Positions 47,105-59,245 of a DNA stretch of 64,000 bases are shown in pieces. The stretch covers positions 1 to 64,000 of the forward strand of contig JAISKF010000014.1 of assembly GCA_031261005.1 (NCBI GenBank), in the 5' to 3' direction. Position 1 is the first letter of the stretch. Every line of letters starts with the position of its first letter. The notes below the pieces were generated by a model. That model searched no databases. It was not told the origin of the DNA and saw nothing but the letters and a program-made list of their open reading frames with translations. Origin of the DNA: Enterobacteriaceae bacterium. Lineage in GTDB: Bacteria > Pseudomonadota > Gammaproteobacteria > Enterobacterales > Enterobacteriaceae. Both the position numbers and the translations under genes were made by a program.

Positions 47105-47773
47105 TTATACTGAAATATATGATTTTTTATTACTGTAATCTAATACACCTAATGAACTTAGATGGTCTATATAAGTATAGATATGTTGTGGTAATGATAA
47201 AATTTCTGGATTTATTGTGATTTCTATAAGACTATTTTTTTCTTCTTGTATTAATGAACTATTTTTAATTGCGTTTTCAATTTCTTTAAAGGTAAGGTTT
47301 TCATCTAATTTTACATGATTAGAGTCAACAGATTGAAAATATATTGATATATCATGTCGAGATAATTTATCTATTAAGTTAACTTCATCTGGAGCTAATT
47401 GGCTAATGATAAATAAAGTTGCAGGGTGGATATTTTCAGCTTTATCTTTATCTATAGAACAGGCAAGTAGCTGAATATACATTTCATTAATTATACTTCC
47501 TTCATCTTGGAATTTAAGTTTATCTATTATTTGTAAGAAAATTGATTCAACAGGTTTTACTCGATTATTTTCTGGTACTCTATCAAGAGCAGCTTGAATT
47601 TTATCTTGAAGTCTTGCAATGTATTGAATTGGAATAAGAGTGAGTCTAAATGTTTTTATTAGGTCTACTCCAAGTTTACCAAATTCTTTTACTAGTCCTT
47701 TGAATCCATCATCATAAATATCTTGTATCACTTGAGGAGGAATATTTTTTATGAAATTTTCAGGATCTGCCAT
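47105..47773 (-). CDS. Abi-alpha (DUF4393) family protein, putative phage defence
   Basis: A 222-aa soluble helical protein with the DUF4393/Abi_alpha central region: PVESIFLQIIDKLKFQDE, then MYIQLLACSIDKDKAENIHP and FIISQLAPDEVNLIDKLS, the spacing typical of that family. Members were linked to abortive-infection loci and are often lone accessory genes; the mechanism is unknown. The gene is much more AT-rich than guaA and rluA on either side and sits exactly where the two E. coli-like blocks meet, consistent with horizontal transfer. ATG at 47773 with AGAG upstream. No partner gene is visible. Confidence 0.72.
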   Translation of the reverse strand: MADPENFIKNIPPQVIQDIYDDGFKGLVKEFGKLGVDLIKTFRLTLIPIQYIARLQDKIQAALDRVPENNRVKPVESIFLQIIDKLKFQDEGSIINEMYIQLLACSIDKDKAENIHPATLFIISQLAPDEVNLIDKLSRHDISIYFQSVDSNHVKLDENLTFKEIENAIKNSSLIQEEKNSLIEITINPEILSLPQHIYTYIDHLSSLGVLDYSNKKSYISV

Positions 47774-54767: not shown

Positions 54768-54866
54768 ATGATTATTGATACTGAAAAATATGTTGAGGCT
54801 ACGGGCGGAAAATTGCATATAGATATTGAGCTGGAAGATGGAACGCATTATTGTCTTCCGATATGA
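54768..54866 (+). pseudogene. C-terminal remnant of an XRE/HigA-type antitoxin gene
   Basis: A 32-codon open stretch contains KYVEATGGKLHIDIELEDG, which resembles the C-terminal segment of helix-turn-helix antitoxin-type regulators (typically YVEALGGxLxxxVxLPDG). The DNA-binding part is missing; the 60 bases before it read in another frame (MEKTIVVLACSIKH then stop). It looks like a decayed toxin-antitoxin gene in the accessory region next to polB. Confidence 0.5.
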
Positions 54867-55020: not shown

Positions 55021-56268
55021 TTATTCATAAATTACTCCTTCATTCTCGTTATTACGAACGATTTGAAGGTCTGCCATCAATTGCTTTCTATCTTGATTAA
55101 AAAGAGAAAGGGTACCTAGTGCTGTTTTTAGGTCTTTTGTTACACATGTTGTTTTATTCATAAAGAAGTTTTGTTTATAACTAACAAAAGAAGGTAATTC
55201 CTCCAGTTTTGTCCAGTAATCTTTTCTCAGTGTTTTATTCGAAAGAGGTGACCGGAGTAATACATGCATTGCTTGCCCATAGAAATTAGGATGTGTTGAT
55301 CGTGAAATAGTAAAATAATTTGGGGAAAGTAAAGAAGAAATAACATCCTGAACGTGATTGCGACCACAGGTATAAGTCGTCAAACGAAGATCAAGACTAC
55401 CGTGTAAGCGGCAGTTGAGTTCGACTATTATGGGTTCTTTTTCTGTCATGATAATTTCAAGGTGTGTTGGACCATTGCGAACGCCAAGAGCATTTAATAC
55501 TTTAGTTGCATAATTGCGAAGTACTGCATATTCAGGAAGTCCATGATCAACAGTTTCCATATAATCTAAAAAAGGAGATATACCATTGTCACGCTTTACA
55601 GCCCAAATGCTAGTTAAATAGTGTTGTCCGTTTAGGGATACATTGTCGAGAATAAATTCCTGTCCACATAAATAGCTTTGTATTAATACAGTAGTATTAG
55701 GAGACCCATAGTATGATGCTGAGTTCATGACCTCATTGAAAGCTTGATGAACAGCTTCTATAGAATTGCATTTGAAAACACCTTTTACCCCTGCACTTTC
55801 AACTGGTTTAATGATAACTGGATATTGATTATGTTGTTCAGCCCAGTTTGAAATAGCATGTATATCATCTGATAGCATTTGTTCAGGTACTTTTAGTCCT
55901 GATTTACTAACTGTGTTGATCATCTCAAACTTATGTCGTCTGGCGGCACTTAGCTCTGACACATTTATATATGTCAGATTCATTGCAGTAGCGAGTATAT
56001 CAACTAATTTGAGAGCCGAATCTAAACCATGTAATACAGCAGAAAACTGCCATTTAGAAAGGGTGCTAAGAGTTTGTCGTATATTTCCTTGATGAATAAA
56101 ACAAGCCACATAATCTTGCTGGTTGAGTGCTTCACCGAAATCGGTCGCTATTGTTAGATCGCTGAATAGATGGACACATTGTATTCCGTAAGCACGAAAA
56201 ATGGGGGCGTAATTCTCTGCGGTTGAAATACCATCAATAATCAGAATAGCTTTAATACTATTTTTCAT
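55021..56268 (-). CDS. ATP-grasp ligase (carboxylate-amine ligase), specificity unknown
   Basis: A 415-aa ATP-grasp enzyme that would activate a carboxylate as an acyl phosphate and join it to an amine, as in dipeptide (L-amino acid) ligases. Seen: ATP-binding Lys154 in YPVIIKPVESAGVKGVF, then EFILDNVSLNGQ, and the Mg2+-binding Glu271, Glu283 and Asn285 in THLEIIMTEKEPIIVELNCRLHG. The N-terminal preATP-grasp domain is present. The start is ATG 56268, with GGAGATAT, overlapping the MFS gene by 11 bp. AT-rich; third gene of the operon. It could instead serve cofactor or siderophore tailoring; no substrate can be inferred. Confidence 0.82.
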   Translation of the reverse strand: MKNSIKAILIIDGISTAENYAPIFRAYGIQCVHLFSDLTIATDFGEALNQQDYVACFIHQGNIRQTLSTLSKWQFSAVLHGLDSALKLVDILATAMNLTYINVSELSAARRHKFEMINTVSKSGLKVPEQMLSDDIHAISNWAEQHNQYPVIIKPVESAGVKGVFKCNSIEAVHQAFNEVMNSASYYGSPNTTVLIQSYLCGQEFILDNVSLNGQHYLTSIWAVKRDNGISPFLDYMETVDHGLPEYAVLRNYATKVLNALGVRNGPTHLEIIMTEKEPIIVELNCRLHGSLDLRLTTYTCGRNHVQDVISSLLSPNYFTISRSTHPNFYGQAMHVLLRSPLSNKTLRKDYWTKLEELPSFVSYKQNFFMNKTTCVTKDLKTALGTLSLFNQDRKQLMADLQIVRNNENEGVIYE

Positions 56269-57643
56269 GTGATATATCTCCATCATTAGATTCATAAAAT
56301 TTGATGTAGGAAAGAAAAGTAGATAGCATCATCACTAGTGCTGCGATAGAAAAGCCAAATGTTGCCCCATATCTGATTGAAAAACTTACTCCTGATACTA
56401 ACAACCCTAACAATGCGACACCTATTGCCCCTCCAATTTGGCGCGTAGCATTAATGGCAGCTGACGCTGTAGCTGTCATTTCTGGCGGTGCAGAATGGAT
56501 AAATGTAGACAGTAATGTCGGCAGAGCGATTCCTCCACCGACCGGCATTAAGAAAAGAAATAAAACAAAGGTCAGAAAATCTGCATCAATATGCGTTAAA
56601 ACAGCGAGGGATATGTAACTTATCATGGCGATAATTACGCCTATTATGATCGTTAAACGCGAGCCAAATCGTTCTGATAAATAACCGCTGGCAGTGTTCG
56701 CTAAGGCAATAATAGTGAATGTGAGTAAAGCCAGTCCGGTCATTACCGGAGAAAATCCGCGATACATCTGAAAGTAAATTGTTAGCAGGAAAATTGAACC
56801 ATAAAAAGAAAAGTTCATTGCTGCACCGAGAAATAATCCCAAAGAAAAAAATGGTGTTTTAAATAAACTGGCTGGAATAAATGCTGTTTGATTATTGCTG
56901 ATATGGCGTACCAGTTGGATCAATGAAATTAGGAAAATCACAGCAAATACTAAATCTGAAAAGGTATAACTTGCATCCTTGCCAGATTTTATCAGTACGA
57001 AAATCAGTGAAAAACTGGTAACAATAAAAAGCAGAATTCCTTTGTTATCGATTTGGCGCGCGTTAAAATGAACTGGTTCATTGATAAAAAGAAGAGTGAA
57101 TAATATACCAATAAGACATATCGGTATATTAATCAGAAAAAGCGAGTGCCAAGAGTAATACTCTAACATCAAGCCGCCAAAGAAAGGTCCGGCAGCACTA
57201 ATGATCCCGCCTATTGCACTCCACCAACCGATAGCTTTTGTTCGTAATACCGCATCTCCGCCACTAGCAATAGTAAGTAACGCTAGTGATGATGGTAGAA
57301 TCAGTGCCGCACCGACCCCTTGTCCAATACGACCTGCAATCATGATTTCAATCGTTGATGAAAATGCACAAATAAGAGAGGAAAGCAGAAAGAAAACCAT
57401 GCCTAGCAGATTGACGATTCGGTTGCCGTAGCGATCACTTAATCCACCAGCAGCGAGAAGTAGTGTAGCAAAGACAATCACGTAAGCATCAGGAATCCAC
57501 TGTAATGCGGATATATCCGTCTGAAATATATTGGCAAATGTAGGTAAAGCCACATTGACGATTGTGACATCGAGCTGAACAACTACATAGCCCATTGACG
57601 TAATGAGAGCAGTTGAAAGCATTGATGAACGGTGCGCTTTCAT
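56258..57643 (-). CDS. MFS exporter, DHA2 (14-helix) family
   Basis: A 461-aa drug:proton antiporter of the EmrB/QacA type. TM1 carries the family motif LDVTIVNVALP, motif A is GGLSDRYGNR and motif C is GPFFGG. Fourteen hydrophobic segments are spread over the length. There is no EmrA-type adaptor gene beside it, so export is probably across the inner membrane only. Its RBS GGAGTGAG overlaps the stop of the small upstream gene and its end overlaps the ligase gene. This indicates a coupled set in which it likely exports the ligase product or protects the cell from it. Confidence 0.9.
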   Translation of the reverse strand: MKAHRSSMLSTALITSMGYVVVQLDVTIVNVALPTFANIFQTDISALQWIPDAYVIVFATLLLAAGGLSDRYGNRIVNLLGMVFFLLSSLICAFSSTIEIMIAGRIGQGVGAALILPSSLALLTIASGGDAVLRTKAIGWWSAIGGIISAAGPFFGGLMLEYYSWHSLFLINIPICLIGILFTLLFINEPVHFNARQIDNKGILLFIVTSFSLIFVLIKSGKDASYTFSDLVFAVIFLISLIQLVRHISNNQTAFIPASLFKTPFFSLGLFLGAAMNFSFYGSIFLLTIYFQMYRGFSPVMTGLALLTFTIIALANTASGYLSERFGSRLTIIIGVIIAMISYISLAVLTHIDADFLTFVLFLFLMPVGGGIALPTLLSTFIHSAPPEMTATASAAINATRQIGGAIGVALLGLLVSGVSFSIRYGATFGFSIAALVMMLSTFLSYIKFYESNDGDISHEK

Positions 57644-57646
57644 AAC

Positions 57647-58012
57647 TCACTCCATCACAAGATAAACGAAAGCTCGACGCTCTCTATCAGGAATAAATTG
57701 TGGTGCGTATGATAGATTGACTAAATTGTTAACTAGTTGACCAGTTTCGTTATTAAGTGGACTCCCAATGATTACATCATCAATGGGAAGATTAGTGATT
57801 TTGATACCTGAATATTCTGAAAATGGTTTTTTAAAATGTTCTAGTGCGTTGGTTACTGTATTAGGAAGAATATGCCACATCTGTTTCCTCATAATACTTA
57901 TATACTCGTTGTCTCCATCCGGTGAATAAAGAAGATCTGTAATTCCTTGGGAAATAGTTAACTTTTCTTCATTAGTAAGTTCTATTACCTTCAGTGTATT
58001 CTCAGTATTCAT
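57647..58012 (-). CDS. Small protein resembling the N-terminal domain of clavaminate-synthase-like oxygenases
   Basis: A 121-aa protein beginning MNTENTLKVIELTNEEK. The stretch WHILPNTVTNALEHF, then SGIKITNLPIDDVIIGSP, resembles the N-terminal domain of AsnO/clavaminate synthase (pattern LPxxLxxALxxF...GxxxLRGLPVDxxxxxTP). The Fe2+-binding HxE/D...H jelly roll that should follow is absent: the frame ends in YLVME and a TGA within the next gene's ribosome-binding site. Either it is a truncated enzyme or a domain kept for another role. GGAG lies 6 nt before the ATG. First gene of the operon. Confidence 0.55.
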   Translation of the reverse strand: MNTENTLKVIELTNEEKLTISQGITDLLYSPDGDNEYISIMRKQMWHILPNTVTNALEHFKKPFSEYSGIKITNLPIDDVIIGSPLNNETGQLVNNLVNLSYAPQFIPDRERRAFVYLVME

Positions 58013-58756
58013 ATTTTTCTCCGTCTGAAATGGTTATATGCGGTCATCTTTTAAGTTGTCGCCTACCTGCGTCTTGAGAGCTCTTTGATATGAATTAATA
58101 ATAGGAATATATGTTATGTATTTGTTAATAAAATAACAAAAATGAATAAACATATTACTTTTTAGAATATAAATATTTTTCAAATATATTTATATAGGGG
58201 TGTTTTTGATATAACTCATTATATATCAATGTATTATTGATATTTTTTAGTTTGGTGACTTTGCTTTAAATGAGATTATATGATGTTTAATTATAGATTG
58301 ATTAATCTATAATTAATGTAAAAGATTATTAATGTGTTTAAACATAGTAACTAAAATGAAAAAAAAGTGAAATATATCGGTAGGCTAAGACAGTTTCATC
58401 CTAAAAATTTTCATTTAACTAATCTGTCCCTAAAGTTATTTCCGCCTAATTATTTACAGGGTTGATTAAAAGTGACTGCTTAATTTAAGGGTAGAAGAGT
58501 TTGGTTATACACATTTTCTAATCTCTTCTAACATTTATCTAAATTCAATAATTACTGCTTCAAAAGCTCTAATCCTCTGATACGATCAGTCCTAAAAAAA
58601 TCCCATTCTTTCACCAAAACCTTTCTAGGATTAATAACAACATTTTTGTTAAATGATAAGGTCAGTAATAACGTTTACCTTTATAAAATTAAAACGCTAA
58701 TCACAATCTACTTCTGCAATTAGCGTTTTATCTTACATCACATCATAACTAACTTC
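58013..58756. other. AT-rich 744-bp intergenic region with a palindrome
   Basis: No credible gene is seen on either strand. It contains the promoter region of the three-gene operon and a perfect 11-bp inverted repeat AATTATAGATT / AATCTATAATT with a 4-nt spacer at 58289-58314, which could be a regulator operator. A GC-containing patch at 58395-58445 (AGACAGTTTCATCC to TCTGTCCC) might be an old insertion-element fragment. Base composition is far more AT-rich than the thi and pol genes. Confidence 0.6.
58690..58730 (-). terminator. Terminator of the DUF1090 gene
   Basis: TAAAACGCTAAT / ATTAGCGTTTTA, a perfect 12-bp inverted repeat with a 17-nt loop, 27 bp beyond the stop codon. On the minus strand the stem's T-rich 3' side runs on into TTTTAATTTTATAA. 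Confidence 0.85.
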
Positions 58757-59245
58757 TTATTTAGCAGCAGGTTCGGTAGTTCCGCTTGCCTGATTCAACT
58801 GTTCTTCAAATTTAGTCAGGCGTGCTTTTTCTGCTTCCAGTTTTTTATCTAACTTAGCGGCTTGTTTTGCTTTGCCTGCATCTAGTGCTTTTTGCTTATC
58901 CGCTTCGATTTTCTTGATGTTTTCTTGTCCTTGTTGGACGCGCTTTTCTAACTTAGCAGCTTGTTTTTGCGGATCAAGCGCGGCTTTGGTGTCGCCTTTG
59001 AACTTCTTCACATCGCCTTTAATCTGATTTTTCGCGTTGCAGTTATCAGTCACTTGCGATAATGCACTTTCCAGACTGGTAACACGATCAGTGTTGTTCT
59101 CTGCTTTAGCTTGGGTGATCTGTTCGTTCAGCTTGGCAATTTTAGATTCACAGCCGCCTTGATGTTTGCCTTTCGCACTGGCGCTGCCAGCACTGATAGC
59201 AACAAGCACTAATGGTAATAGAACAACTTTAGTGATGGTTTTCAT
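58757..59245 (-). CDS. DUF1090 family periplasmic protein (YqjC-like)
   Basis: Secreted protein of 162 aa with a signal peptide cleaved near SAGSASAKGKHQGG. The mature part is highly charged and predicted almost entirely helical/coiled coil (KIAKLNEQITQAKAEN, KAKQAAKLDKKLEAEKARL). Two cysteines (CESK and NCNAK) match DUF1090 positions and may form a disulfide. YqjC is associated with the yqjCDEK envelope-stress genes in E. coli; here it stands alone. Function unknown. Confidence 0.82.
   Translation of the reverse strand: MKTITKVVLLPLVLVAISAGSASAKGKHQGGCESKIAKLNEQITQAKAENNTDRVTSLESALSQVTDNCNAKNQIKGDVKKFKGDTKAALDPQKQAAKLEKRVQQGQENIKKIEADKQKALDAGKAKQAAKLDKKLEAEKARLTKFEEQLNQASGTTEPAAK

Follow-up and report, generated by a model that had tools for sequence, protein, structure and literature searches.

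The 64,000-nucleotide stretch of DNA analyzed here (the window) carries, between polB and thiQ, what is very probably a small, horizontally acquired operon for making an NRPS-independent modified small peptide, now broken by a deletion that has joined the front of an oxygenase gene to the end of a gene for an ATP-grasp ligase (AG2). Behind the fused stub follow a full-length exporter gene and the gene for another ATP-grasp ligase (AG1). In support of this reading, the two halves of the stub match, significantly, two separate genes of the same cluster. The features of the locus are as follows:

55021–56268, minus strand: ATP-grasp ligase AG1, 415 aa, of the L-amino-acid-ligase type (the longest open reading frame runs to 56295, 424 aa)
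56258–57643, minus strand: DHA2-type MFS exporter, 461 aa, full length (MFS_1, 218 bits)
57647–58012, minus strand: 121-aa open reading frame (the fused stub), first of the three genes
57737–58012, minus strand: 5′ part of the stub, oxygenase residues 1–92 (VioC/AsnO/clavaminate-synthase-like, Fe(II)/2OG), from alignment and profile
57647–57751, minus strand: 3′ part of the stub, the C-terminal ~33 residues of AG2, in frame
57737–57751, minus strand: apparent deletion junction at shared Glu-Thr-Gly codons, where the alignments to both sources overlap (ETG)
58690–58730, minus strand: terminator-like hairpin, a 17-pair stem followed by a T-rich tail (consensus match only)
58757–59245, minus strand: yqjC/DUF1090 gene, between the island and thiQ

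The locus and its fused first gene

The preliminary description of this DNA had proposed an AT-rich island, inserted between polB and thiQ, with three genes that overlap or abut. The open reading frames, a ribosome-binding site in a stop region, an 11 bp gene overlap and the base composition all agree with this. The three genes have a GC content of 0.34–0.40 and a GC3 of 0.25–0.34, compared to ~0.50 and 0.51–0.55 for the core genes rapA, polB, thiQ and thiP, and the flanks of the island are ~26% GC. The placement in the polB–thiQ interval also holds, except that the yqjC/DUF1090 gene intervenes before thiQ. This gene has a GC3 of 0.39 and is absent from the stretch examined in the nearest relative. 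About 7 kb from the three genes lies a member of the Abi_alpha abortive-infection family (47105–47773, minus strand; PF14337, 88.5 bits).

A plausible ribosome-binding site is present at all three starts. That of the exporter is a GGAG within the final codons of the 121-aa open reading frame (ATGGAGTGAGTTATG). If AG1 starts with the ATG of position 56268, which has a GGAG in front of it, its gene overlaps the exporter gene by 11 bp; with the ATG of the longest frame, at 56295, the overlap would be 38 bp. The terminator-like hairpin lies upstream of the three-gene operon, after yqjC, and suggests that the operon has its own promoter.

Stub residues 10–92 align with the N-terminus of the oxygenase, at 39% identity over residues 9–92 of the Burkholderia pyrrocinia protein and 31–32% identity to those of Pantoea and Rahnella. 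Pfam profiles gave no match to this part. A profile made from the real relatives scored 57 bits against the stub, compared to 11 bits for the best of 20,000 shuffles. The clavaminate-synthase/AsnO-like affinity suggested earlier for this gene holds. At the other end, stub residues 89–118 are 50% identical to residues 343–372 of the B. pyrrocinia AG2, and the corresponding ends of the ligases from Pantoea and Rahnella are 43–53% identical to it. The AG2 profile scored 30 bits, compared to 8 bits for the best of 20,000 shuffles. When a whole Pantoea genome (G268) was scanned with the 121-aa protein, both genes were matched independently, with the ligase part covering residues 88–118.

The oxygenase part stops at residue 92 and is consequently without the HxE motif (150–152) and H294. 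The earlier statement that the first gene lacks a catalytic domain was correct in that the HxE…H site is missing, and a deletion fusion accounts for it. The HxE motif, the distal histidine and the arginine are retained in all 12 intact relatives examined, always beyond residue 92, and the oxygenase is full length in each of these. Two features of the cluster family as defined here, a full-length oxygenase with HxE…H and a full-length AG2, are lacking in the window copy, where only ~33 C-terminal residues of AG2 remain. Judging from the lengths of the intact proteins, ~265 residues of oxygenase and ~340 residues of AG2 are missing, altogether ~600 residues or ~1.8 kb. Both losses are most simply explained by one in-frame deletion, likely between short homologous sequences at ETG, which would imply a microhomology mechanism.

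To judge from its sequence, the 121-aa open reading frame is an in-frame deletion scar and not a genuine N-domain protein. That it should be a stand-alone N-domain protein, with the trio forming a minimal biosynthetic operon, is very improbable. The frame is intact and has a ribosome-binding site, but the final ~33 residues belong to the C-terminus of another enzyme family encoded in the cluster, and the intact relatives examined all have full-length oxygenases. Nor does the locus represent the minimal combination for which it was taken. An intact set comprises four genes or more, and of these the window has lost the oxygenase core and nearly all of AG2.

The join could in principle be an assembly artefact, with an intact oxygenase and AG2 in the true genome. 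This is a draft in 54 contigs, 94% complete. However, the two sides are homologous over just a few residues where they meet, which is short for a mis-join by an assembler, the reading frame is kept, and the rest of the assembly contains no remaining oxygenase or AG2 sequence, making such an error very unlikely. The AT-rich flanks yielded no decayed pieces of either gene, and single-protein searches of the 54 contigs found no second oxygenase or AG2 elsewhere in the genome, although at 94% completeness distant copies of the missing genes could sit in gaps.

Intact clusters in other bacteria

The intact set consists of a VioC/AsnO-like Fe(II)/2-oxoglutarate oxygenase, an exporter and the two ATP-grasp ligases, AG1 and AG2. 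Such sets are found in at least 12 Burkholderia species, Robbsia andropogonis, Erwinia aphidicola, Pantoea and Rahnella. A first single-sequence scan of genome contigs gave no relatives. Translated searches of plasmids and genomes led to B. pyrrocinia, B. cenocepacia, Pantoea agglomerans, P. alfalfae and Rahnella sikkimica, and a later, alignment-based scan did find relatives among the contigs, adding further Burkholderia species, R. andropogonis, E. aphidicola and Pantoea sp. Mb-10. E. coli genomes gave no match. The gene-neighborhood comparison that had been proposed as a check finds the oxygenase, exporter and ligase families together in Burkholderia, Robbsia, Erwinia, Pantoea and Rahnella.

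Nearly every cluster locus has a full oxygenase, an MFS exporter, a PRK07206-type AG1 and an AG2, the exception being B. lata (L021), where no AG2 was found within the stretch examined. The arrangement varies. In E. aphidicola (L031, 4311–9254) the four genes are contiguous in the order oxygenase–exporter–AG2–AG1, with no additional cluster gene among the kinds searched, while the order in Robbsia is oxygenase–exporter–AG1–AG2. In Burkholderia the oxygenase gene is divergent, and a LysR regulator and another protein are encoded between AG1 and AG2. The clusters of P. agglomerans FL1, P. alfalfae and Rahnella include an extra, third ligase, a PRK07505 PLP-dependent acyltransferase-like enzyme and an NtaA/DmoA FMN monooxygenase. 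The PLP enzyme (53%) and the FMN monooxygenase (41%) of this larger Pantoea cluster are also encoded near the core genes in B. cepacia LK29 (L024, 14364–16895). The Rahnella AG1 is annotated as a shortened protein of 303 aa (L008, 10118–11029), and the cluster on that plasmid may be damaged too. Another genome (G325) has a related oxygenase, 47% identical to that of Pantoea (L071, 7943–8956), around which no MFS/ATP-grasp cluster was found.

The clusters of Burkholderia, Robbsia, E. aphidicola, P. agglomerans, P. alfalfae and R. sikkimica share with the window the families that survive there, with the exporter beside the ligase (identities of 39–43% for the ligase and ~40–42% for the exporter). 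In contrast to the window, both the oxygenase and the second ligase are complete there, and the gene order is different. The fusion itself implies a parent with the putative order oxygenase–AG2–exporter–AG1, which was not seen in any cluster locus examined, a point against the reading as a broken operon.

The cluster oxygenases are of the GntD/clavaminate synthase/VioC/AsnO type. The intact relatives belong to this family and carry HxE…H, although the one intact cluster oxygenase that was tested scored under every equivalog cut-off; the window copy differs from all of these in breaking off after 92 N-terminal residues, short of the active site. In the intact set, the predicted task of the oxygenase is to hydroxylate or desaturate an amino acid that serves as a building block. 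The two ATP-grasp ligases would join the modified amino acid to other amino or carboxylic acids via acyl-phosphates, and the DHA2 exporter would carry the product out of the cell and protect the bacterium that makes it. These roles are assigned from the protein families.

The open-access literature yielded no described product for the cluster family and nothing relevant on an oxygenase/ATP-grasp pathway in Burkholderia. A survey of Pantoea antibiotics lists 12 clusters, of which PNP-2 is 5,784 bp long (PMC11350110). A six-gene block in P. agglomerans CFSAN047154 (L009, 3458–9242) matches PNP-2 in length and number of genes, and is called PNP-2 here by size and gene number only (PMC11350110). 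Like the window, this block has an MFS gene and a related ATP-grasp ligase (H11, 32% identity), but the ligase is distant in the tree, and in place of the other cluster genes the block carries those for a diiron oxygenase, an iron-sulfur protein, an arylamine N-acetyltransferase and a hydrolase. PNP-1 was rejected as a match, as it is a different cluster with a GntR regulator, a carbamoyltransferase and a formyltransferase. PNP-3 comprises eight ORFs in 8,487 bp and is reported to be restricted to Pantoea (PMC11350110). It was considered for its eight ORFs and, judged by its description, is a rather unlikely match, because neither its length nor its distribution fits: the Pantoea relative of the cluster has seven genes in 8,941 bp and is also found in Rahnella. 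Plasmid pPag3 of P. vagans C9-1, the carrier of PNP-3, was covered but is not one of the three plasmids that matched.

The exporter and the remaining ligase

The two genes behind the stub are adjacent and full length, one of the features by which the cluster family is defined here. Their assignments as an MFS transporter and an ATP-grasp ligase were far above chance in profile searches, and the earlier reading as a DHA2 exporter and an ATP-grasp ligase was right. By its profile matches, the transporter is a DHA2/EmrB-like MFS protein: it matches MFS_1 at 218 bits (218 against 33 in the comparison with the cut-off), and its best model is that of EmrB/DHA2 (TIGR00711), although the 205.6 bits scored there are below the cut-off of 230.2. 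It is 42% identical to the MFS protein of the Pantoea cluster.

AG1 matches ATP-grasp_4 at 56 bits and PRK07206 (NCBIfam) at 308.1 bits, above the curated cut-off of 302, and is 41–43% identical to AG1 proteins of the clusters. Its AlphaFold model (pLDDT 89) is closest to the PDB folds 3vot, 4wd3 (RizA) and 3vmm (BacD) in Foldseek, and its nearest solved structure by sequence is 30vh, an L-amino acid ligase (E = 4e-43). AG1 thus shares both fold and sequence family with bacterial L-amino acid ligases (BL00235, RizA, BacD; 3vot, 4wd3, 3vmm, 30vh), but the identity in the Foldseek alignments is 12–17%, with 30vh closer by sequence. With these ligases as its most similar ATP-grasp folds and the invariant residues of the family in place, AG1 is assigned to the PRK07206/L-amino-acid-ligase type, and its ligase activity is predicted. 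It also belongs to the same wider family of ATP-grasp amide ligases as DdaF, the dapdiamide A synthase of P. agglomerans, which acts in a small non-NRPS peptide pathway. However, AG1 falls far below the equivalog cut-off of the DdaF model (209.3 against 840 bits).

A routine cellular role for AG1 is hardly credible. PurD, RimK and CarB share the ATP-grasp fold, but AG1 falls far short of the profiles of housekeeping enzymes, a close match to which had been named beforehand as a way to overturn the biosynthetic reading (PurD, 28 of 288 bits; RimK, 32 of 143). In the tree, AG1 groups with the cluster ligases (support 100/100), and it is rare in the family, with no orthologues at a conserved site.

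AG1 retains its catalytic residues and 21 of the 22 columns that are invariant across all 36 relatives. Of the columns that are invariant within the cluster-ligase clade, AG1 retains 110 of 166, and the corresponding figure for the exporter is 104 of 153; with a single window genome, these counts do not separate relaxed from purifying selection. The AG1 branch is long (1.56).

Origin and fate of the operon

The polB–thiQ site is variable. In the nearest sampled relative (G396; PolB 86%) the interval holds 1.9 kb of other genes, which by eye are a FrnE/DsbA-like oxidoreductase and a HigBA-like toxin–antitoxin pair. At 54783–54848 (plus strand) the window has 22 codons left from the C-terminal end of a HigA-like antitoxin, which is intact at the same site in that relative (L064, 6995–7294), and it is this sharing that marks the site as variable. 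No AG1 of the cluster kind was found in G396. Among 392 genomes of the family, a cluster-level AG1 is present in two, the window's own and one Pantoea, while a third (G668) has only a distant one. The AT-rich composition, the lack of AG1 in the nearest relative and the rarity in the family make horizontal gain the simplest account.

With the oxygenase core and AG2 lost, the locus could yield its original product only if the missing enzymes were supplied from elsewhere, and this product is probably no longer made; the gene content is that observed in this assembly, and the chemistry is deduced. The in-frame join lets the ribosome run on to the start of the exporter gene, and the exporter and AG1 can still be made. 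The pair is either decaying or retained for some remaining function.

It is possible, though doubtful, that the operon is reduced but working, with the exporter and ligase selected for immunity to a related compound made by a neighbor or for a simpler dipeptide, and the stub acting merely as a leader whose translation is coupled to that of the exporter. Both proteins are full length with starts, ribosome-binding sites and stops, the ligase keeps nearly all of its deep invariants, and the in-frame fusion preserves the ribosome-binding site of the exporter. However, a recent deletion alone could explain the retained reading frames, and selection is not measurable from one genome. The long AG1 branch counts against a working operon and is equally a counterpoint to a plain remnant. 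A narrower version, to which we give less credence still, is that a producer has turned into a resistant non-producer, in which the exporter and ligase are selected as immunity to the related peptides of neighbors, or to modify them, and the stub couples translation. With a single genome of the genus, the proposed deletion is neither datable nor seen as a polymorphism.

The resemblance to small dipeptide antibiotic loci that was noted at the outset holds, and the three families are conserved together elsewhere; the locus itself is a remnant, and an antibiotic product is putative for every member of the family. As a broken operon, the window copy would show clearly how an in-frame deletion can disarm a peptide operon while leaving its exporter untouched. 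The more useful outcome is judged to be the compact set of oxygenase, exporter and two ATP-grasp ligases that is shared by the Burkholderia species, Robbsia, Erwinia, Pantoea and Rahnella, and whose four-gene form in E. aphidicola is small enough to be expressed whole in a laboratory strain.
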